64,000 nt of DNA. Origin: Nitrosomonas marina (lineage in GTDB: Bacteria; Pseudomonadota; Gammaproteobacteria; Burkholderiales; Nitrosomonadaceae). This document shows positions 7,884 to 62,117 of this stretch, piece by piece; position 1 is the first letter of the stretch; every line of letters begins with the position of its first letter. The DNA lies in the NCBI RefSeq assembly GCF_900110145.1, contig NZ_FOCP01000012.1, positions 1-64,000 of the forward strand. Direction: 5' to 3'. The notes beneath the pieces are model-generated. The model saw only the letters and a list, made by a program, of their open reading frames with translations. It had not been told where the DNA came from and ran no database searches. Made by a program: the position numbers and the translations under genes.

Positions 7884-9572
7884 ATGAATAATCAGATTTT
7901 AAAATTTTCATATCAATTGATTGTTGCGGCAGCTTTCCTGGTCGGAAATTCAATTATCATGGCCGGAGATATTCAGCCGCATTGCGCGTACCTGCCGATC
8001 GATATCGGTAAGTATGGCAAGCAGCCGTTTCGGAATCCGCCGGAAATCCGCGCGGAAAACGGCCAACTGAACACAACATTTACAGTTCAGTATACCGATG
8101 GCGAAACCACCACGCTGGGCGGATGTCCGCTGAAACTGAGAACTTACAACGGCGAGTTAACCGGGCCGACTTTACGTGTCAGCCAGGGTGATGTGATTAA
8201 CCTGATGCTGAAGAACCGCCTGCCAAAGGAAACGCCCGACCAAATCCAGGCCCAGTTCGAACAGGAAAACCAGAATGCCTATCTCGACACCACGCCGGCT
8301 TCGTACAATACCACCAACGTACATTACCACGGCATGCATGTATCGCCCGTCGGCAACAGCGACAACGTGCTGCTGGCAATTCCGCCGCAAAGCGACTTCG
8401 GGTATGAAGTGAAAGTACCGGCCGATCACCCGATTGGCTCGTACTGGTATCATGCACATGCACATGGTTCGACAGCGATCCAGGTCGGCAGCGGCATGGC
8501 GGGCGCACTGATCGTCGAGGACGATCCCGAAGAGATACCTGCAGCGCTGAAAGCAGCGAACGCCAGCGAGAAGATTTTTGTGTTGCAGACAATCCTGTAC
8601 GACCAGCAGGGCGAGCTCAACAACATTACCAGCCTGTTTCCCGGTCCGTCAAACCCCACGCCGGAAAACTGCAACGATCAGGGTGAAATGGATACCTGGC
8701 ACTGCTCGCGCCGCCATATCACCATCAACGGTCAGATTGTCCCGATTATCTCCATGAAGCGCGGTGAAGTGCAGCGCTGGCGGCTGATTGATACCGCGTT
8801 CCGCGAATCGATTTTCTTTGCTGTCGAAGATCATGACCTGCACGAGATCGCGCTGGACGGCAATTACCTTGGGCGTGTCGATAGCTGGAAAGCAGGTACA
8901 CCGATCGAACTTCAATCGGGTTACCGCAGCGATGTGCTGATCAAGGCCAACATGAAATCCGGCGATTACCGCATTATCGACCAAACGGCTTCCAGCAAAA
9001 AATCGCTACGCCAGATCAACGAGCCGGAAAATCTGCTCGCCATTCTCAGAGTTACCGAAGAAACCGATGACATGGCACTGCCGACCAGTAAGGAAATGGC
9101 GCCGCTTGCGCCATTTGGCGATACTGATCTGCGCAATGAAGCCGTCGGCGTGCAAGAGGTCGTGTTCAAGCTTGGCCAGGACGTAAAAGGCAAAAAAAAC
9201 TACTTTCAGGTTAATTACCGTGCATTCAATCCGGATCATATACGCCAGCTGGAACTCGGTTCGGTTGACATGTGGTCGTTGACGACTGTCGGGGACCCGG
9301 CAGCCATTCCCAACGCCATACCGCCGACACCGCATGTATTCCACATTCATGTCAACCCGTTCCAGTGGGAACGAAACGGGCCTGACGGCAAGCCCCAGAT
9401 GGTCTGGAAAGATACGCTGCTGGTGCAGGGACCGGCGGTAACCAATATCTATACAAAGTATCGCGATTACATCGGAAAATTCGTCATTCATTGCCACATA
9501 CTCGATCATGAAGATCTGGGCATGATGGAAGTTCAGGAAGTCGTCAATACGCCGGTTGCACAGACGCATTGA
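7884..9572 (+). CDS. three-domain multicopper oxidase
   Basis: The 562-residue protein has a signal peptide (to about residue 28) and all four copper-binding segments. These are VHYHGMH (His147 and His149), WYHAHAHG, HVFHIHVNPFQ, and HCHILDHEDLGMM near the end (His536-Cys537-His538 with the downstream His and Met of the type 1 site). It should therefore bind one type 1 copper and a complete trinuclear centre and reduce O2 to water while oxidising an organic or metal substrate in the periplasm. It heads a co-directional cluster with tyrosinase and LodA/LodB genes, so phenolic or amine-derived products are plausible substrates, but this is inference from position only. Confidence 0.93.
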   Translation: MNNQILKFSYQLIVAAAFLVGNSIIMAGDIQPHCAYLPIDIGKYGKQPFRNPPEIRAENGQLNTTFTVQYTDGETTTLGGCPLKLRTYNGELTGPTLRVSQGDVINLMLKNRLPKETPDQIQAQFEQENQNAYLDTTPASYNTTNVHYHGMHVSPVGNSDNVLLAIPPQSDFGYEVKVPADHPIGSYWYHAHAHGSTAIQVGSGMAGALIVEDDPEEIPAALKAANASEKIFVLQTILYDQQGELNNITSLFPGPSNPTPENCNDQGEMDTWHCSRRHITINGQIVPIISMKRGEVQRWRLIDTAFRESIFFAVEDHDLHEIALDGNYLGRVDSWKAGTPIELQSGYRSDVLIKANMKSGDYRIIDQTASSKKSLRQINEPENLLAILRVTEETDDMALPTSKEMAPLAPFGDTDLRNEAVGVQEVVFKLGQDVKGKKNYFQVNYRAFNPDHIRQLELGSVDMWSLTTVGDPAAIPNAIPPTPHVFHIHVNPFQWERNGPDGKPQMVWKDTLLVQGPAVTNIYTKYRDYIGKFVIHCHILDHEDLGMMEVQEVVNTPVAQTH

Positions 9573-52406: not shown

Positions 52407-53021
52407 CTATTTTTTTGGTGAGCAAATATTGTTCAGCAATGTAATCGCAGATATCTGCCTGGGCTGCGCTCGTCCGCGCCTTGCCTGATCATAGACAGCG
52501 TTAATCTGTAGCGTGTCTGCATATATGGCAGCTTCCACTGTATATGCGTCAAAACCGAAACTTGCACCGAAATTAATCCAGTCCAGCGGCATTGTAAATT
52601 TTGTTCCCCGATCAATTCGTGTCGCGCTAAACCCGGCATATTGGCTGCTTAGCGGTGATTCTTTAAAGGTAATCGCGGTCAACTGACTATCCGGTTCCAG
52701 CGCGGCTTCATAAATCCGAACTGCTTCATTCGCCTCTCTATTCAAAGGAATAATCAGTGCATAGGCTTTTTCGTGCTGAATATGAAGCATTACATAATCA
52801 TTACTTTCCCCGTCTACCCGCTCTCCCTTGGTTTGCACCTGGAATACCAGGTGATTGTCCGATGTAACATCAGAAGTGACACGTAAAATGTCCTGCTCCG
52901 GCGGCAGCGATTTATCCATAAAAGAAATGATAACGCGCGGATCAGCCTCCAGCTGCATGGCTACAGCGGGTCCAACCAGCAAACCGAACTGGAAAAACAG
53001 CAAGGCGATCCTGGCAATCAT
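52407..53021 (-). CDS. secreted protein coupled to the SCO1-like gene
   Basis: The 204-residue protein has a signal peptide (ending VAMQLEAD) and a beta-rich body (HLVFQVQTKGERVDGESNDYVMLHI, FTMPLDWINFGASFGFDAYTVEAAIYADTLQ). No family is recognised. Its ATG overlaps the stop of the SCO1-like gene by four bases, so the two are probably made together and act together in the periplasm. A role in copper-site assembly is possible but is based on position only. Confidence 0.72.
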   Translation of the reverse strand: MIARIALLFFQFGLLVGPAVAMQLEADPRVIISFMDKSLPPEQDILRVTSDVTSDNHLVFQVQTKGERVDGESNDYVMLHIQHEKAYALIIPLNREANEAVRIYEAALEPDSQLTAITFKESPLSSQYAGFSATRIDRGTKFTMPLDWINFGASFGFDAYTVEAAIYADTLQINAVYDQARRGRAQPRQISAITLLNNICSPKK

Positions 53022-53617
53022 AAGAACAACCCCCTGTTTTTCTTAAACAGTGACGCAATGTCAGCTGCGTCTTTGACTGCGTCGAACATCACCTTGATCC
53101 TGCCTTCCGGATCAATCAGAAAAGCGGTCGTGCTGTGGTCAACCTGATAGTTTTCCATATTTCCTGCACTTTTCGTATAGAAAGCGACTTCAACACCGAA
53201 AGCATTTTTAAATTGCTCCAGTTGCTCACCTTCAAAACGTAAATACGAAATATCAGATCCGAACCGCTCTGTATAGCTCGACAACGCAGCAGCAGAATCA
53301 CGATCAGGGTCGATTGAAACGAAAGTGCCGTTTAATTGAATATTCTCAGCGGAAGCGGCCTGAATCAGCATATGCAGGTTGCCAAGCGAGGTCGGGCAAA
53401 TATCCTTGCAGCGGGTAAACCCGAAAACCACCAGTTGCCATTGATCGCTTTCATTGGCGTTCACATGCGCCTGTTTCAGATGCGCGATTGTCTCTGCCTG
53501 CAGGGGGACGGGGCGCGGCAGAACGAGTGGCGCCGCCGCAAGACCGGTCTGCATGAAAAGCAGCACCGCAGTTATCACTGCAAACACGCTGCTCTCATGA
53601 AAAAACATTTTTTTCAA
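53018..53617 (-). CDS. SCO1/SenC-family copper chaperone/thiol protein, TTG start
   Basis: A strong AAGGAG eight bases upstream selects TTG at 53617 and gives a 199-residue protein with a signal peptide (to about GLAAAP). The SCO motifs are present: FGFTRCKDICPTSLGN with the CxxxC copper-binding pair, and DHSTTAFLIDPEGRIKVMF with the third ligand His. SCO proteins deliver copper to, or reduce, CuA sites of oxidases. No oxidase subunit gene is adjacent. The neighbours are a beta-propeller protein and, across the porin gene, the split multicopper oxidase. Confidence 0.9.
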   Translation of the reverse strand: MKKMFFHESSVFAVITAVLLFMQTGLAAAPLVLPRPVPLQAETIAHLKQAHVNANESDQWQLVVFGFTRCKDICPTSLGNLHMLIQAASAENIQLNGTFVSIDPDRDSAAALSSYTERFGSDISYLRFEGEQLEQFKNAFGVEVAFYTKSAGNMENYQVDHSTTAFLIDPEGRIKVMFDAVKDAADIASLFKKNRGLFL

Positions 53618-53747
53618 CTTAGCATCTCCTTTTAGATTTAACACAAAGAATCGGTGCAGCGTTTCAAAAACCCACCAGCCAGAGACCAGTTCGTGCATCT
53701 GCCGTGAGCAGCCGATGGGTTTTGACGTGCACTATAAACGCCTAGCT

Positions 53748-55139
53748 TCAGCGAGTTCCGCCTGCTGCAAAAATACCATGCGGCTGCACCAGCCCATCCT
53801 CAGGACCCCACTGTTTAACAACCTGGTCTGTCACCGTGTCTATTTTCAACACATAACCAGAAACCCAGCTTGCCACAATCAGATACCGGTTGTCCGGCGT
53901 CGGGCTGATGGTGTGCGCAACAGAGTACCCCTGCGGCAGTTCATGCCCCGGTTTCATCCGCTTAATGAAACGCGGATTGTAGCGATCGGTCAAATCCCAG
54001 ACCGAAATATAACCGTCTTCACCAAACTCATAATCCAGCGAATCTTCCTCAGCCAGATAAAGTTTGCCGTTGACAACCGCCAGATCGGAAGGCGAGCGGA
54101 ATACACCGCGCCCGTTCACACGTTTCGTGTGGCGTATAATTTTCGTAGCAGTCCCTTCAACGGTGTCCAGCAACCATACACTCGGTGGAATAATCTTTCT
54201 GGTAGTGTCCGGTGTCAGCGACGTTTTATCAAACTGCATCGAGGCCGTGACAGCGAAACGCTCGTCCAGCCAGTAGACAAAATGCGTAAAGGCGGCATGT
54301 CGTTTCTCATTACCCAGCATGATCTGGCCAACCACTTGCAATTCCCCTGTCTCTCTATTGGGCTTGTATACATCGATCATACTATTATCGAAGAAATAGC
54401 CTGTGCCCAGACCGACTGTGCCTGACCGATTGAAGTTAATGCCATGCGTTTGCTCCGTATAACCCGGTATTGCTATCGGGTCGACACTGGCCAGCTGGTT
54501 CGTCTTCAGATCGACGACCCGCACTCTGTCCGAGGTAAATTCGGTCATATACATGAAATCCGAATAAGGCAGCAGCGTATTACCGTGAATCTGCGTTCCT
54601 CTGCCGATCAGCCAGTTAGGTACATTCTGGACATCATTGACCGGTTCGACGAAAGGCAGCTCGGCCGGTGTATTCGGGCTGTCCGCCACCATCAACGATT
54701 CCAGATTCAATGACACCGTTCCTGCATTCCAGTCAATGTCGAGCACTTTTAATGCAATCACATAAGACGGGTGGTTTTCCGTGTTGTCAGACGTGATATA
54801 AATCATATCGCCCTCCGGCAATACCGCGGTATGCTGCAGCGGTATATCACCCGGCCAGCCGTTAATACTTGTCAGCGGATCAATGATAATCAGTTTGTCG
54901 TTTTCATAATTAAACAGGTAAATCACACGGGTGTGGTAATCGATCGCGGTAACCACAGGCTGTAAATGTTCATTGTAAACAGCCTGATTGTGATTTCCTG
55001 AATAGTTATTACTGCGAAAATGCACTTCATTATCACCGTCGAACTCAGTTTCTTGGGCGCTGAGTGTGCTGGCTGAGAATGCCAGCATACATGCTGCTGT
55101 TAGCGAGGCCATATGGCCAGGCTTTATTTTTGAAATCAT
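53748..55139 (-). CDS. periplasmic beta-propeller protein
   Basis: The 463-residue protein has a signal peptide (ending TLSAQE). Repeated blade-like segments follow, such as VVTAIDYHTRVIYLFNYEN, DRVRVVDLKTNQLASV, SPSDLAVVNGKLYLAEEDS and TPDNRYLIVASWVSGYVLKI. It is best described as a YVTN/NHL-like propeller without haem motifs. GGAGGG precedes the ATG. Several His residues (THGINFNRSG, RHAAFTHFVYW, VAHTISP, QPHGIF) fall at blade tops, where they could bind a metal. It is upstream of the SCO1-like gene on the same strand. Confidence 0.78.
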   Translation of the reverse strand: MISKIKPGHMASLTAACMLAFSASTLSAQETEFDGDNEVHFRSNNYSGNHNQAVYNEHLQPVVTAIDYHTRVIYLFNYENDKLIIIDPLTSINGWPGDIPLQHTAVLPEGDMIYITSDNTENHPSYVIALKVLDIDWNAGTVSLNLESLMVADSPNTPAELPFVEPVNDVQNVPNWLIGRGTQIHGNTLLPYSDFMYMTEFTSDRVRVVDLKTNQLASVDPIAIPGYTEQTHGINFNRSGTVGLGTGYFFDNSMIDVYKPNRETGELQVVGQIMLGNEKRHAAFTHFVYWLDERFAVTASMQFDKTSLTPDTTRKIIPPSVWLLDTVEGTATKIIRHTKRVNGRGVFRSPSDLAVVNGKLYLAEEDSLDYEFGEDGYISVWDLTDRYNPRFIKRMKPGHELPQGYSVAHTISPTPDNRYLIVASWVSGYVLKIDTVTDQVVKQWGPEDGLVQPHGIFAAGGTR

Positions 55140-58171: not shown

Positions 58172-59224
58172 ATGATACGTAAAGTAATGCATACATTACG
58201 GCCGAAACATTCGCACTTGGCGTCTACGGCAACAGTGTCTGCTCGACGAGGCGCGCAAAAACAGACCAGTTTTGTTTTTTATATACTGACCGCGCTCGCG
58301 TTAATATTGTGCATCCAGACTGCATTCGCTGCCAGCGCAGGAAAAACACACATAATCGAACTGTGGGCCGAGAAAATACCGGCCGGCGTTGAAGGCGGAA
58401 ACGATCTGTTTGCTTACCGTATGGCCCGGCACATCATTAAAAAGGGCAACAAGGAAACCGATGTGACATCCAGGTATGTATCGGAGCCGACGATACCGGG
58501 ACCAACCCTGGTCATCGACGAAGGTGATGAAGTCGTACTCACGTTGAAACACGTATTCGACCCGGGCAATTCGGCCACACTTGAACAGGTCAGCGTCCAT
58601 GTACATGGCGTGCATTACGATATTCACAGTGACGGCACCCTCGAATACATTAATCTGGTTGCAGACGAAAGCGCCACGCCCACGATGAGTTATACGTATC
58701 ACTGGGTTGCCGCACCCGGCACAGCAGGTACATGGCCCTACCACGATCACAATATGATCACGCTCAATGGTGCCGAGGACAGAGGGTTGTATGGCGCTGT
58801 CATTGTCAATGGGCGCACCAGTATGCAGGCCCTGAACAAGACCGGAAAGCTAAAAAATGTGCCTGTTTCCAGTATCAAAAAGGAATATGTCCTGTTTATC
58901 GGTGATGACGCGTTCTGGGGAACCGAAATCGATAACAAGACAGGCCAGCAGACGCCACTCTGGCATAACCCGACGCTCTCGGCCCATCAGGGCAACAATG
59001 TCCGCTTTCATCTGATTGCGCTTGGTTCCAATTCACACAATTTCAAAATGAACCATTACGGATGGATCGATCCCGGTACAAATCTGATTATTACTGAAAA
59101 AGTGATTGGCCCATTAGAGAAGCATGTTTTTGCTGTCCAGGCAGCATGGGATTCACAGTATAAGGATGACACCTTTCCCGGTAACTCACTGGGTATGCAG
59201 GGCAACTTTAACGTTAATCCCTAA
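58172..59224 (+). CDS. multicopper oxidase half-subunit keeping domain-1 ligands only
   Basis: A strong GGAGGGG fixes the start. The 350-residue protein has an unusually long signal sequence (hydrophobic part about 33-53, cleavage near AFAAS) and two cupredoxin domains. Domain 1 keeps VSVHVHGVH (His143, His145) and TWPYHDHN (His191, His193), the trinuclear copper ligands. In domain 2 the expected HxxHxH reads HNFKMN (289-294). The final HCHxxxHxxxxM block is absent, replaced by DTFPGNSLGMQGNF. It therefore cannot hold a type 1 copper or a complete trinuclear centre alone. The next gene, 33 bases downstream, has exactly the complementary ligands. Confidence 0.88.
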   Translation: MIRKVMHTLRPKHSHLASTATVSARRGAQKQTSFVFYILTALALILCIQTAFAASAGKTHIIELWAEKIPAGVEGGNDLFAYRMARHIIKKGNKETDVTSRYVSEPTIPGPTLVIDEGDEVVLTLKHVFDPGNSATLEQVSVHVHGVHYDIHSDGTLEYINLVADESATPTMSYTYHWVAAPGTAGTWPYHDHNMITLNGAEDRGLYGAVIVNGRTSMQALNKTGKLKNVPVSSIKKEYVLFIGDDAFWGTEIDNKTGQQTPLWHNPTLSAHQGNNVRFHLIALGSNSHNFKMNHYGWIDPGTNLIITEKVIGPLEKHVFAVQAAWDSQYKDDTFPGNSLGMQGNFNVNP

Positions 59225-59257
59225 TTGAAACGTAATTCTCAATCAAAGGACAGAAGA

Positions 59258-62032
59258 ATGAAATTTATTATCTTTGGATCGAATAAAAAAACAGTGGCGG
59301 CAACGGTTGCGTTCATAACCGCATTGTTCTTTTCAAGTATCGCGCTGGCAGCCACGCATACAATCAGCCTTTCAGCGGAGACGCTGCCAAACGGCCAGCT
59401 TGGCTATAAAATGATCAGCCACGTCGGGTCAAATCAAAATTACCCGGCAGAAACAGCCATACCCGGCCCGACTCTCTTTGTCCAGCAGGGTGATACAGTC
59501 AACATTTCACTGACGAACAACACCAGCGTTCCCGTTGGCATCAATATTCCCGGCATTCTGGAAAACGCGGCCGAGGCTGCCGCTGGCGGCGGTTCACAGA
59601 ATTACTCCTTTACTGCCAGCAAAACCGGCACATATCCGTATCATGACGACGGGTCCGGATTGCTGGGCCTGTTTGGTGCTCTAGTCGTCAACGCCGCCGA
59701 CGGTTCCGTACAAAGCTATATTGACGGTGACGGCACCATCACCCCGACCGACATCGCCGATCTGGACAAGGAATACATCATGTTCATGGTTGGTTCCACG
59801 TTCTGGGGCGCTGAAATTGTCAACGGTACGCAGACCCCTCTGTGGACCAACCCGGTACTTGGTGCCAATCTGGATGAAATCGTGCGCTTTCATGTGCTGT
59901 CATTAGAACACGACCATACATTCCATTTGCACGCACACCGCTGGCTAGACGAGGTCGACCCGATCAACCAGGGCCGCACACCGCATATCATTGACGTCAA
60001 AATACTGGCCGGCAAGGCGGACAGCCACGCCTTCACGCTTAAAGCAGGTAGCGGTGTCGGCGCGGGCATGTGGCACTTGCACTGTCATGTGGTATCGCAC
60101 ATGGAATCCAACATGGCCGCACGATTCCGTGTGGACGAGCACGGTGCTGCATCCGGTGTCAGTGTTGCGGGCGCGTCACCGTATGGTGCGATACTTCTGA
60201 GTCCCAACCAGAGCGACCCTGGTCTGGTCACCTTTGAAATTTCGGACGAGCCCGGCAGCTGGTTCAGAAGTGCGCGCAGCGACGCGATCATCGACCCCGC
60301 CGGCCCGATCGGTGCACTCAATATCAAAACGCGTTCACTTGAAGTAATGGCCCCAGGCAGCAGTGCGCATTTCATTATGTCGGACACCAACGCGGTGCAC
60401 ACCATTACAACCCTGATCTGGCCAAGTGATGCCGACACAGATAACAAGCATGACATTCCGTTTGACCAGACCAAGGCCTACCGCGGCGGCGGCATTGTAC
60501 AACTCAATACACCGGGTCTGTATGTATTCACCTGTAAAATCCATCCTTATATGTTTGGCGCCGTGATCGTAGACGATCCCAGCACGGACGGGCTGGATTT
60601 GGGCGAAGCAATTGATCTGGTGGTTGGTATCCATGATTTGCCGACTACCAGCGATCTCGCTACGCGCTTGCTGAGAACATTTTTTGTCGCCACTACCCAG
60701 AGAAACTGGCAGGATTACACATCTGCCGCACCATGGCATGCGGAATACCCGAACGTTGACGTACGCTTGAGTGGTGGAGCGGTGTTGAATCTGAAGGCTG
60801 TACTCGAAAGCCGGTATGGTCAGGACATTGCCCTGAGTCCGTTGTCCAATCCTGCTACGCCAGGAGTCGGCGAGGTATGGATTAATACGCAGTTTGAAAA
60901 AACGGCCAGCAAAACCAAACCCGGAACCATCACCGTACTCGACACGTCGGACTGGACGATCAAACGCAAGATTGCATTGCCGTCAATCAACATGAATCAT
61001 CCACATAATATGTGGATTGATCGCAATCAATCGACCGTTTTCCAGACACAATGGTTCGACAACAAGCTGACATTCATCAATCAGTCCAACGGCCAACTGA
61101 TCGACAATATTCGGATTGGCGATTCACCGTCCCATGTCATGACGATGCCGGACAGTGATGATATTACCGTGGCCATTAATGGCGAAAACAGGGTGGTCAC
61201 CATTCCGGCAGGCACGACGACGCCGGTATCCAGCATCCCTACGCAAATGCCTGGACAGGTGCCAGCAAACCCGCATGGTCACTGGATTACACCGGAAGGT
61301 AAAATCGTTACACCAAATATCAATACATCGGATACCGGTTTTTATGACGGCAATTCCGGGCAGATCATGGCACGTCCGGCCGCTGGTGGTAATTTCCCGC
61401 ACGGGCCACACCCAATCGCGATTGGCGTCGGCAATGACAGAATTTACGCCGCCAACCTGCTGGACCACTCATTGAATGTTTATGACTTTGACGGTAACCC
61501 GGTTCCGGTAGCTGCAAACGGCGGCAAACCATACATCAATCTGATTGCTGCCTATAATCCCGTAACGGGCGAAGGTGCAGCAAATTCCGGCATCTTACCG
61601 ATCCAGACCCCTGTTGATCCGACCGGCCGCGTGGTGGTAACGGCAAATACGGGCGGCACAATCACCGTTGTCGACACCAGCTCTGATACAGTCGTGGCCA
61701 TATTACCTTGCGACCCTGGCTGTCATGGCGTCAATTTCGGCGCCAAAGCCGGAGGAGGTTATTACGCTTACGTCAGCAGCAAATTTTCCAACCGACTGAT
61801 TGTGGTTGATCCTGACCCTAATGGCGACGGCAATTTCTCTGATGCTATTGTTGCCGGCACAATCTCCATGGCAGATAGCACTGCGGCTACAGATGATGCT
61901 GTGGTCAGCCTGGCAGGCATGGGCGGTCAGGGCGTACTGGCAATCCCTAATGTGTATAACGGCTGGGTACAACATCTGCCATCCGGATGGCAGACTGGTT
62001 TGACTGATGCGCAGAAAAACGCTGTTCCCTAA
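59258..62032 (+). CDS. multicopper oxidase half-subunit fused to a cupredoxin and a beta-propeller
   Basis: AAAGGA selects ATG 59258; the precursor is 924 residues with a signal peptide (to about ALAAT). Cupredoxin 1 has lost its ligands: VPVGINIPG (Gly94, Asn96) and YPYHDDG (only His129). Cupredoxin 2 is intact, with HTFHLHAH (His220, His223, His225) and HLHCHVVSHMESNM (His275, Cys276, His277, His281, Met286). A third cupredoxin has a full mononuclear site (His381, Cys426, His429, Met432 in FTCKIHPYM). From about 490 to the end a YVTN-like beta-propeller follows (ITVLDTSDWTIKRKI, DSPSHVMTMPDSD, TITVVDTSSDTVVAI). The upstream gene supplies the missing domain-1 histidines. A terminator follows at 62081. 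Confidence 0.9.
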   Translation: MKFIIFGSNKKTVAATVAFITALFFSSIALAATHTISLSAETLPNGQLGYKMISHVGSNQNYPAETAIPGPTLFVQQGDTVNISLTNNTSVPVGINIPGILENAAEAAAGGGSQNYSFTASKTGTYPYHDDGSGLLGLFGALVVNAADGSVQSYIDGDGTITPTDIADLDKEYIMFMVGSTFWGAEIVNGTQTPLWTNPVLGANLDEIVRFHVLSLEHDHTFHLHAHRWLDEVDPINQGRTPHIIDVKILAGKADSHAFTLKAGSGVGAGMWHLHCHVVSHMESNMAARFRVDEHGAASGVSVAGASPYGAILLSPNQSDPGLVTFEISDEPGSWFRSARSDAIIDPAGPIGALNIKTRSLEVMAPGSSAHFIMSDTNAVHTITTLIWPSDADTDNKHDIPFDQTKAYRGGGIVQLNTPGLYVFTCKIHPYMFGAVIVDDPSTDGLDLGEAIDLVVGIHDLPTTSDLATRLLRTFFVATTQRNWQDYTSAAPWHAEYPNVDVRLSGGAVLNLKAVLESRYGQDIALSPLSNPATPGVGEVWINTQFEKTASKTKPGTITVLDTSDWTIKRKIALPSINMNHPHNMWIDRNQSTVFQTQWFDNKLTFINQSNGQLIDNIRIGDSPSHVMTMPDSDDITVAINGENRVVTIPAGTTTPVSSIPTQMPGQVPANPHGHWITPEGKIVTPNINTSDTGFYDGNSGQIMARPAAGGNFPHGPHPIAIGVGNDRIYAANLLDHSLNVYDFDGNPVPVAANGGKPYINLIAAYNPVTGEGAANSGILPIQTPVDPTGRVVVTANTGGTITVVDTSSDTVVAILPCDPGCHGVNFGAKAGGGYYAYVSSKFSNRLIVVDPDPNGDGNFSDAIVAGTISMADSTAATDDAVVSLAGMGGQGVLAIPNVYNGWVQHLPSGWQTGLTDAQKNAVP

Positions 62033-62080: not shown

Positions 62081-62117
62081 AAAAAACCGTGCACCATTTT
62101 TTGGTGCACGGTTTTTT
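62081..62117. terminator. strong bidirectional intrinsic terminator
   Basis: A perfect 16-bp stem (aaaaaaccgtgcacca at 62081-62096, tggtgcacggtttttt at 62102-62117) with a five-T loop lies 48 bases after the oxidase stop codon. The stem is flanked by A and T runs, so it can end transcription from both directions, serving the split oxidase operon and the minus-strand gene at 62250-62750. Confidence 0.93.

Follow-up and report, generated by a model that had tools for sequence, protein, structure and literature searches.

Two adjacent genes in a 64,000-nucleotide stretch of Nitrosomonas marina DNA (contig NZ_FOCP01000012.1, positions 1 to 64,000; "the window" below means this whole stretch) probably encode the two obligate subunits of a single secreted multicopper oxidase. 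MCO-A (positions 58172 to 59224) and MCO-B (positions 59258 to 62032), both on the forward strand, have lost copper ligands in an opposite manner, and each retains the half of a trinuclear site that is missing from the other. This opposite loss had been proposed by a first-pass annotation, and both frames are open and all of the residues that it named read as claimed, with MCO-B residues counted from the ATG at 59258. The same partition was found in 81/81 distinct MCO-A and 78/78 full-length MCO-B sequences and is therefore not a chance feature of this locus. The window belongs to a 3.5-Mb genome assembled into 69 contigs, and the nearest named relative of the locus is that of N. marina Nm71, with identities of 93% for MCO-A and 95% for MCO-B.

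Partition of copper ligands between MCO-A and MCO-B

MCO-A is a two-cupredoxin protein of 350 amino acids that is probably secreted, as its N-terminus is long and hydrophobic (the signal peptides of both proteins were assessed by eye on the translations). It matched Pfam Cu-oxidase_3 (E 6.8e-11), and its best PDB sequence match was the two-domain laccase 3t9w (E 5e-14). We considered whether MCO-A might be a degraded nitrite reductase, but this was dropped because its best matches are two-domain laccases. Roles in type 1, type 2, and type 3 (T1, T2, and T3) copper sites were assigned to residues of both proteins by homology. The four domain-1 ligands of MCO-A lie in the motifs HVHG (H143 and H145, T2/T3 ligands; codons at 58598 to 58606, forward strand) and YHDH (H191 and H193, T3 ligands; codons at 58742 to 58750, forward strand). 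Its domain 2 reads HNFKMN where HxxHxH is expected, and the cysteine and the HCHxxxHxxxxM block are gone.

MCO-B is 924 amino acids long from the ATG at 59258 and 935 from the TTG at 59225 with which the listed frame begins; the ATG is the likely start, since it is preceded by AAAGGACAGAAG. The protein matched Pfam Cu-oxidase_3 and Cu-oxidase_2, and its best PDB sequence match was the two-domain laccase 9ix9 (E 1e-20). The predicted structure of its domains 1 and 2 aligned with two-domain laccase chains at a fold Z of about 23 over 228 residues. Domain 1 reads GIN and YHDD and keeps neither histidine pair. Domain 2 carries HTFHLH (H220, H223, and H225, ligands of T1, T2, and T3; codons at 59915 to 59932, forward strand) and HCHVVSHMESNM (H275, C276, H277, H281, and M286, T3/T1 ligands; codons at 60080 to 60115, forward strand). 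The initial description of each gene as a two-cupredoxin unit thus holds for MCO-A but not for MCO-B, which adds a third cupredoxin and a beta-propeller.

We aligned the oxidase parts of 82 distinct MCO-A sequences, 80 distinct MCO-B sequences, and 20 distinct undivided relatives (the complete form described below), with the window counted once. Duplicates of identical sequence and the shortened MCO-B of locus L018 (genome G012), which was not classed as MCO-B, were excluded before ligands were counted. H191 and H193 were present in 82/82 distinct MCO-A sequences and all four domain-1 histidines in the 81/81 that cover all sites, one MCO-A being truncated at a contig end. All eight domain-2 ligands were present in 78/78 full-length distinct MCO-B sequences, including the complete type 1 site (H220, C276, H281, and M286) that had been predicted, and the histidines of HTFHLH were found in 79/79 distinct sequences covering that site. 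The rows outside the 78 were a frameshifted copy (L083), which differs, and a fragment (L084) from which the region is missing. The MCO-A equivalents of H223, H225, H275, and H281 were never histidine and that of C276 was never cysteine, with a single histidine recorded at H277. In MCO-B, the equivalents of H143, H145, and H193 were histidine in 0/79, 0/75, and 0/31 sequences (49 gapped at the last position). No intact protein was found among the 82 MCO-A and 80 MCO-B sequences, nearly all of which come from the window's family, and the ligand halves were retained across three genera of that family. A sequencing or assembly artifact was dropped as the cause of the split because the split recurs in many genomes.

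Residues around the copper site were compared with those of the small laccase SgfSL. According to an excerpt of PMC10419308, His105 and His290 of SgfSL ligate T3alpha, His235 ligates T2, and Tyr109 and Asp260 belong to the T2 channel. A phmmer alignment with 6rh9, an SgfSL mutant, placed SgfSL H235, R240, and D260 at H223, R228, and D246 of MCO-B, and motif spacing placed H105 and Y109 at H145 and Y149 of MCO-A. The Tyr109 equivalent was present in 80/81 MCO-A sequences (with one Phe) and in 0/68 MCO-B sequences having a residue at the position, whereas the Asp260 equivalent occurred in 79/79 MCO-B and 9/81 MCO-A sequences. As aligned, the second-shell residues are split between the two proteins in the same way as the ligands. 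The domains that retain ligands were also the better conserved, with a mean pairwise identity in MCO-A of 0.629 for domain 1 versus 0.574 for domain 2 and in MCO-B of 0.566 versus 0.659. The undivided form had values of 0.738 and 0.783, indicating that the ratio between the domains is reversed in MCO-A. These identities, and the distances given below, were calculated from 80 MCO-A rows, 79 MCO-B rows, and 54 pairs, in which the window occurs twice with little effect on the means.

MCO-A also retains remnants of a type 1 site, namely, the equivalents of the first T1 histidine (H289; 72/81) and of the T1 methionine (78/82), though the site itself is gone. These remnants could suit a pseudo-oxidase that binds copper through its four histidines and serves as a carrier or chaperone for MCO-B. 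The latter would then have no trinuclear site and would act in electron transfer through its two type 1 sites, and those of domain 2 and of the third cupredoxin could indeed shuttle electrons. However, H223, H225, H275, and H277, assigned by homology to T2 and T3 alone, are kept in 78/78 full-length MCO-B sequences, while MCO-A keeps exactly the four complementary histidines together with the T2-channel Tyr109 equivalent. For a protein that acts purely as a chaperone, neither these residues nor tight gene pairing would be needed, and we regard this explanation as improbable.

The pairing of the genes was examined in two sets of genomes. A scan of one genome per species (84,980 species) with MCO-A peptide patterns gave 23 further loci, of which 20 were titled Nitrosomonas and one each was in a metagenome-assembled genome (MAG) labeled Nitrospirae, Chromatiales, or Pseudomonadales. 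A complete MCO-B gene lay directly downstream of MCO-A in 21/23 loci; at L009 the contig stops after MCO-A, and at L018, an N. communis MAG that is apparently the same genome as G012, MCO-B lacks about its first 263 residues. In the MAGs labeled Nitrospirae, Chromatiales, and Pseudomonadales (L009, L010, and L011), MCO-A, together with MCO-B in L010 and L011, had 61 to 72% identity, reflecting either horizontal transfer of the pair or misbinning. Among 125 genomes of the window's family, we found 80 clear MCO-A genes (profile match with E below 1e-60) in 72 genomes. MCO-B adjoined downstream on the same strand in 77/80 cases, which include the shortened MCO-B of G012 (without the first 263 residues) and frame-broken copies in G032 and G092. 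The other three cases were at assembly breaks: the two genes lay on the ends of two contigs in G038, a second copy was broken by a run of N in G050, and a frame-broken MCO-A ran into an MCO-B fragment at a contig end in G064. A search for co-occurrence with the same ligand pattern, as had been recommended, thus found the genes adjacent apart from these breaks and the partition in all full-length copies. Two genomes (L014 and L021) have two tandem pairs of different subclades, each MCO-A with its own MCO-B.

An undivided relative and the probable history of the pair

Among 369 genomes of the class, two outside the family (L061 and L062) matched the MCO-A profile at E 1e-10, and in 398 genomes of the phylum there was no match to that profile outside the genus. 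In both L061 and L062, one gene encodes a two-domain oxidase that retains every ligand, and a second, separate gene after it codes for a cupredoxin and propeller homologous to the remainder of MCO-B. This complete form was found in 21 of 151 genomes from the order of one of the two matches, while a 22nd has only a weak and different oxidase. The cupredoxin-propeller gene was directly downstream in 21/21 fetched loci (20 of that order and 1 of the other order), and every ligand was present in 20/20 distinct complete forms. The complete pairs (L061, L062, and L100 to L120) are homologous to MCO-A and MCO-B throughout and have the same gene order, with identities of about 39 to 46% to MCO-A, 36 to 41% to the oxidase part of MCO-B, and about 40 to 47% to its remainder. 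They differ in that all ligands are in one polypeptide and that the two genes are not a duplicated and fused pair. The first-pass annotation had named intact lone homologues in close relatives as evidence that would count against a divided enzyme. We looked for these and did find intact homologues, but in another order of the class, where they are accompanied by the separate cupredoxin-propeller gene.

A tree was built by a quick method from 51 rows, comprising 13/82 MCO-A, 13/80 MCO-B, 21 complete forms, and 4/6 outgroup sequences. MCO-A, MCO-B, and the complete form each occupied one side of a branch (SH-aLRT values of 100, 100, and 82, respectively). As judged by homology, the window's family has two tandem homologues of the complete oxidase, with the cupredoxin-propeller part joined to the second and the ligands partitioned between the two. 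Gene duplication followed by reciprocal ligand loss, as originally suggested, appears well supported by the intact single-gene homologues, the separate MCO-A and MCO-B clades, the like partition of second-shell residues and domain conservation, and the rarity with which the pair is found apart. With the order oxidase, then cupredoxin-propeller taken as the starting point, the most likely history would be that the oxidase gene was duplicated in tandem, that its downstream copy fused with the cupredoxin-propeller gene, and that the two copies lost ligands reciprocally.

We infer that the order in which most complete forms occur is that of the gammaproteobacterial methanotrophs. PF02461 (ammonia monooxygenase/particulate methane monooxygenase) was found in 11/14 genomes with the complete form versus 0/14 controls, and 2 further complete-form genomes were positive. 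A link between the complete form and these monooxygenases was rejected, as no enrichment was shown: only three genomes of that order without the complete form were included in the test, and one of these, G872, was PF02461 positive. Of three genomes with the divided pair that were also tested, one (G116) had no match.

Proposed assembly and additional domains of MCO-B

The closest known systems are the type B two-domain multicopper oxidases, or small laccases (SLAC, SgfSL, Ssl1, and CjMCO), which provided the best PDB sequence matches of both proteins and resemble domains 1 and 2 of MCO-B in fold. Every chain of the known two-domain oxidases carries both ligand halves. MCO-A and MCO-B share the ligand motifs of these enzymes, and both have two cupredoxin domains akin to those of two-domain laccases. 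In contrast, neither polypeptide contains all eight trinuclear-site histidines; each chain has one ligand half, and in MCO-B the oxidase part continues into a further cupredoxin and a propeller. Members of the family have their type 1 site in domain 2, and this site is found in MCO-B, whereas MCO-A alone is without its cysteine and second histidine. The pair probably works like a type B enzyme, yet neither chain has the defining ligand set of the family. As described in excerpts of PMC6650940 and PMC13151041, known two-domain members are homotrimers in which the trinuclear site is built from two protomers.

Tandem duplication, fusion, and reciprocal loss would have made each copy dependent on the other. 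As between adjacent subunits of the known two-domain enzymes, the trinuclear copper site would form only where domain 1 of MCO-A (H143, H145, H191, and H193) meets domain 2 of MCO-B (H223, H225, H275, and H277), as this is the only pairing of the two that rebuilds a complete site. Electrons from a reductant would reach the type 1 copper of MCO-B (H220, C276, H281, and M286), perhaps by way of the type 1 site in its third cupredoxin, and would then pass through the His-Cys-His motif to the shared site, where O2 would be reduced to water. Because the interface between domain 1 of MCO-B and domain 2 of MCO-A is without a ligand set, there would be fewer trinuclear sites per oligomer than in a homotrimer, and the assembly would have to be asymmetric. 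A trimer of either A1B2 or A2B1 composition would hold a single complete site, as in ceruloplasmin. In an excerpt of PMC3738974, ceruloplasmin is described as a set of homologous cupredoxins in which only the interface of domains 1 and 6 keeps a trinuclear site. Domain 1 of MCO-A would correspond to ceruloplasmin domain 1 and domain 2 of MCO-B to domain 6. The six-domain oxidases differ in being one chain of six domains; here there are two chains with four oxidase domains and an extra cupredoxin, and neither chain contains six cupredoxins (two in MCO-A; two, one more, and the propeller in MCO-B).

The third cupredoxin of MCO-B (60188 to 60622, forward strand) has its own type 1 site (H381, C426, H429, and M432), all four residues of which were present in 91/91 cupredoxin-propeller sequences compared (76 MCO-B, 13 stand-alone proteins, and 2 of the complete-form type). 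Its CxxHxxM loop resembles that of amicyanin. The YVTN-type beta-propeller (60830 to 61972, forward strand) has the YVTN/YncE fold and a best PDB match to 1l0q (E 2.1e-16). Between residues 583 and 823 (61004 to 61726), H583 was conserved in 90/91 sequences and H626, H673, H675, and the CxxxCH motif (C818, C822, and H823) in 91/91. H583, H626, and H673 are 43 to 47 residues apart, or about one blade, and this spacing suggests a ring of histidines in the propeller, perhaps with a metal or heme. Nitrous oxide reductase likewise joins a beta-propeller with conserved histidines to a copper cupredoxin and has CuA and a seven-histidine CuZ site. MCO-B has the reverse domain order and a cupredoxin with a single-cysteine type 1 site rather than CuA, and its membership in that family was rejected because CxxHxxM had one cysteine in 91/91 sequences. 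Compared with the seven histidines of CuZ, five propeller histidines of MCO-B were conserved in 90 to 91 of the 91 sequences, as positions in the sequence. A more elaborate arrangement, an autonomous oxidase of ammonia oxidizers in which an asymmetric, ceruloplasmin-like heteromer has one trinuclear site and a metal or heme in the propeller oxidizes a nitrogenous or metal substrate, with electrons passing through the two type 1 coppers in turn to the trinuclear site, is conceivable, but we consider it rather unlikely. Stand-alone cupredoxin-propeller proteins of about 600 to 625 amino acids are common in the window's family without an adjoining two-domain oxidase (L085 to L091 and L094 to L096), and near one of these genes (L085) is a protein that by eye resembles a copper P-type ATPase.

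Several observations weigh against the proposal of a shared site in an obligate heteromer. The H191 equivalent is still histidine in 46/79 MCO-B sequences, and the Tyr109 equivalent is phenylalanine in 5/20 complete forms, which indicates that tyrosine is not strictly needed there. The tree does not decide whether MCO-A and MCO-B are sisters or whether the complete form is the nearer relative of one of them; it also carried a long-branch warning. The 1:1 or 3:3 assembly suggested earlier is not straightforward, since two kinds of subunit can alternate strictly around a ring only if their total is even, and such a ring cannot be a trimer like those known. An AlphaFold2 model of a single chain (mature MCO-A, a linker, and MCO-B through the third cupredoxin, read through TAA, with 33 alignment rows) had a pTM of 0.52 and a mean pLDDT of 69.7, with the third cupredoxin and the MCO-A histidine loop poorly predicted; model residues 71 to 120, which include the first histidine pair of MCO-A, had block means of 42 to 65. 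A fold comparison of domains 1 and 2 of MCO-B only, which is silent on the complex, gave no six-domain oxidase among the matches listed (best 50). Distance matrices of the two proteins were strongly correlated (r of 0.949 over 54 pairs versus a maximum of 0.257 in 500 permutations), but the common history of the species confounds this result, which is expected of coinherited genes and is by itself no proof of contact. Finally, MCO-B is broken or shortened in G012, G032, G064, and G092, and in G059, where there is no clear MCO-A, an MCO-B-like C-terminal fragment contains a stop codon; the broken copies could be assembly errors or pseudogenes.

These broken copies, and the 53/125 family genomes with no clear MCO-A, would be consistent with the two genes being decaying remnants of an ancestral enzyme without a present oxidase function. 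However, the ligands are kept across three genera, most copies are full length, and the window has plausible ribosome-binding sites and a terminator. Decay would not leave complementary halves, and among the alternatives weighed here we give this one the least credence. Nearly as implausible is that another oxidase in the cell supplies the domain 1 that completes the trinuclear site of MCO-B, with MCO-A pairing elsewhere and the adjacency being historical. The window's genome does encode further proteins of the multicopper oxidase superfamily, such as that of a separate three-domain multicopper oxidase gene at 7884 to 9572 on the forward strand. The two of these matches that were inspected, beside two further frames of 552 and 616 amino acids, were a three-domain oxidase and a protein that by eye resembles a nitrite reductase. 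MCO-A and MCO-B track each other closely, as the correlation above indicates, and the genomes with two tandem pairs retain both partners of each, which speaks against this alternative.

Genomic context and significance

MCO-A and MCO-B share one strand and one reading frame in the window and apparently form an operon of two genes for secreted proteins. Just 3' of MCO-B, a 16-bp hairpin whose 3' arm is T-rich (62081 to 62117, forward strand; fold z-score of -8.86 versus shuffles) is a probable intrinsic terminator of this operon. The hairpin was absent from the list produced by a consensus scan, and promoter-like sites from that scan were no more numerous than in shuffles. The N. europaea genome that we searched has one MCO-A-MCO-B pair. 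An excerpt of PMC13356812 gives log2 changes of 6.16 and 6.14 for two genes of multicopper oxidases in N. europaea infected with phage. The near equality of these values suggests an operon, and the two genes may be this pair, which we take as a lead only. NE1543, named in an excerpt of PMC10781756, could not be matched to either gene.

Gene neighborhood was dropped as a clue to the substrate, because flanking genes differ between the lineages compared and no substrate follows from them. The window has a porin and, by eye, a tyrosyl-tRNA-synthetase-like gene as flanks, while thyA/folA-like and response-regulator genes were seen by eye near L022. Also close to the pair in the window, at 53018 to 55139 on the reverse strand, are genes for a SCO1/SenC-like copper chaperone (Pfam E 3.3e-29) and for a 463-amino-acid histidine-rich protein without a Pfam match, and both recur in N. 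marina L013.

In open-access full text (excluding subscription papers and preprints), no heteromeric two-domain multicopper oxidase was described in the titles and opening abstract lines of the matches listed, in agreement with the statement in the first-pass annotation that no such laccase was known. If the proposal is correct, the pair would provide a natural example of a single catalytic metal site that reciprocal loss has split between two paralogues, and because an undivided relative is still alive, the evolution of an obligate heteromer would be directly testable. In annotation, the two genes are readily taken for independent multicopper oxidases, though probably neither product works alone. 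To our knowledge, the periplasmic redox chemistry of ammonia oxidizers, which involves NO, hydroxylamine, and copper, is not fully assigned, and the pair would point to an uncharacterized copper oxidase in N. europaea and in 72/125 genomes of the family.

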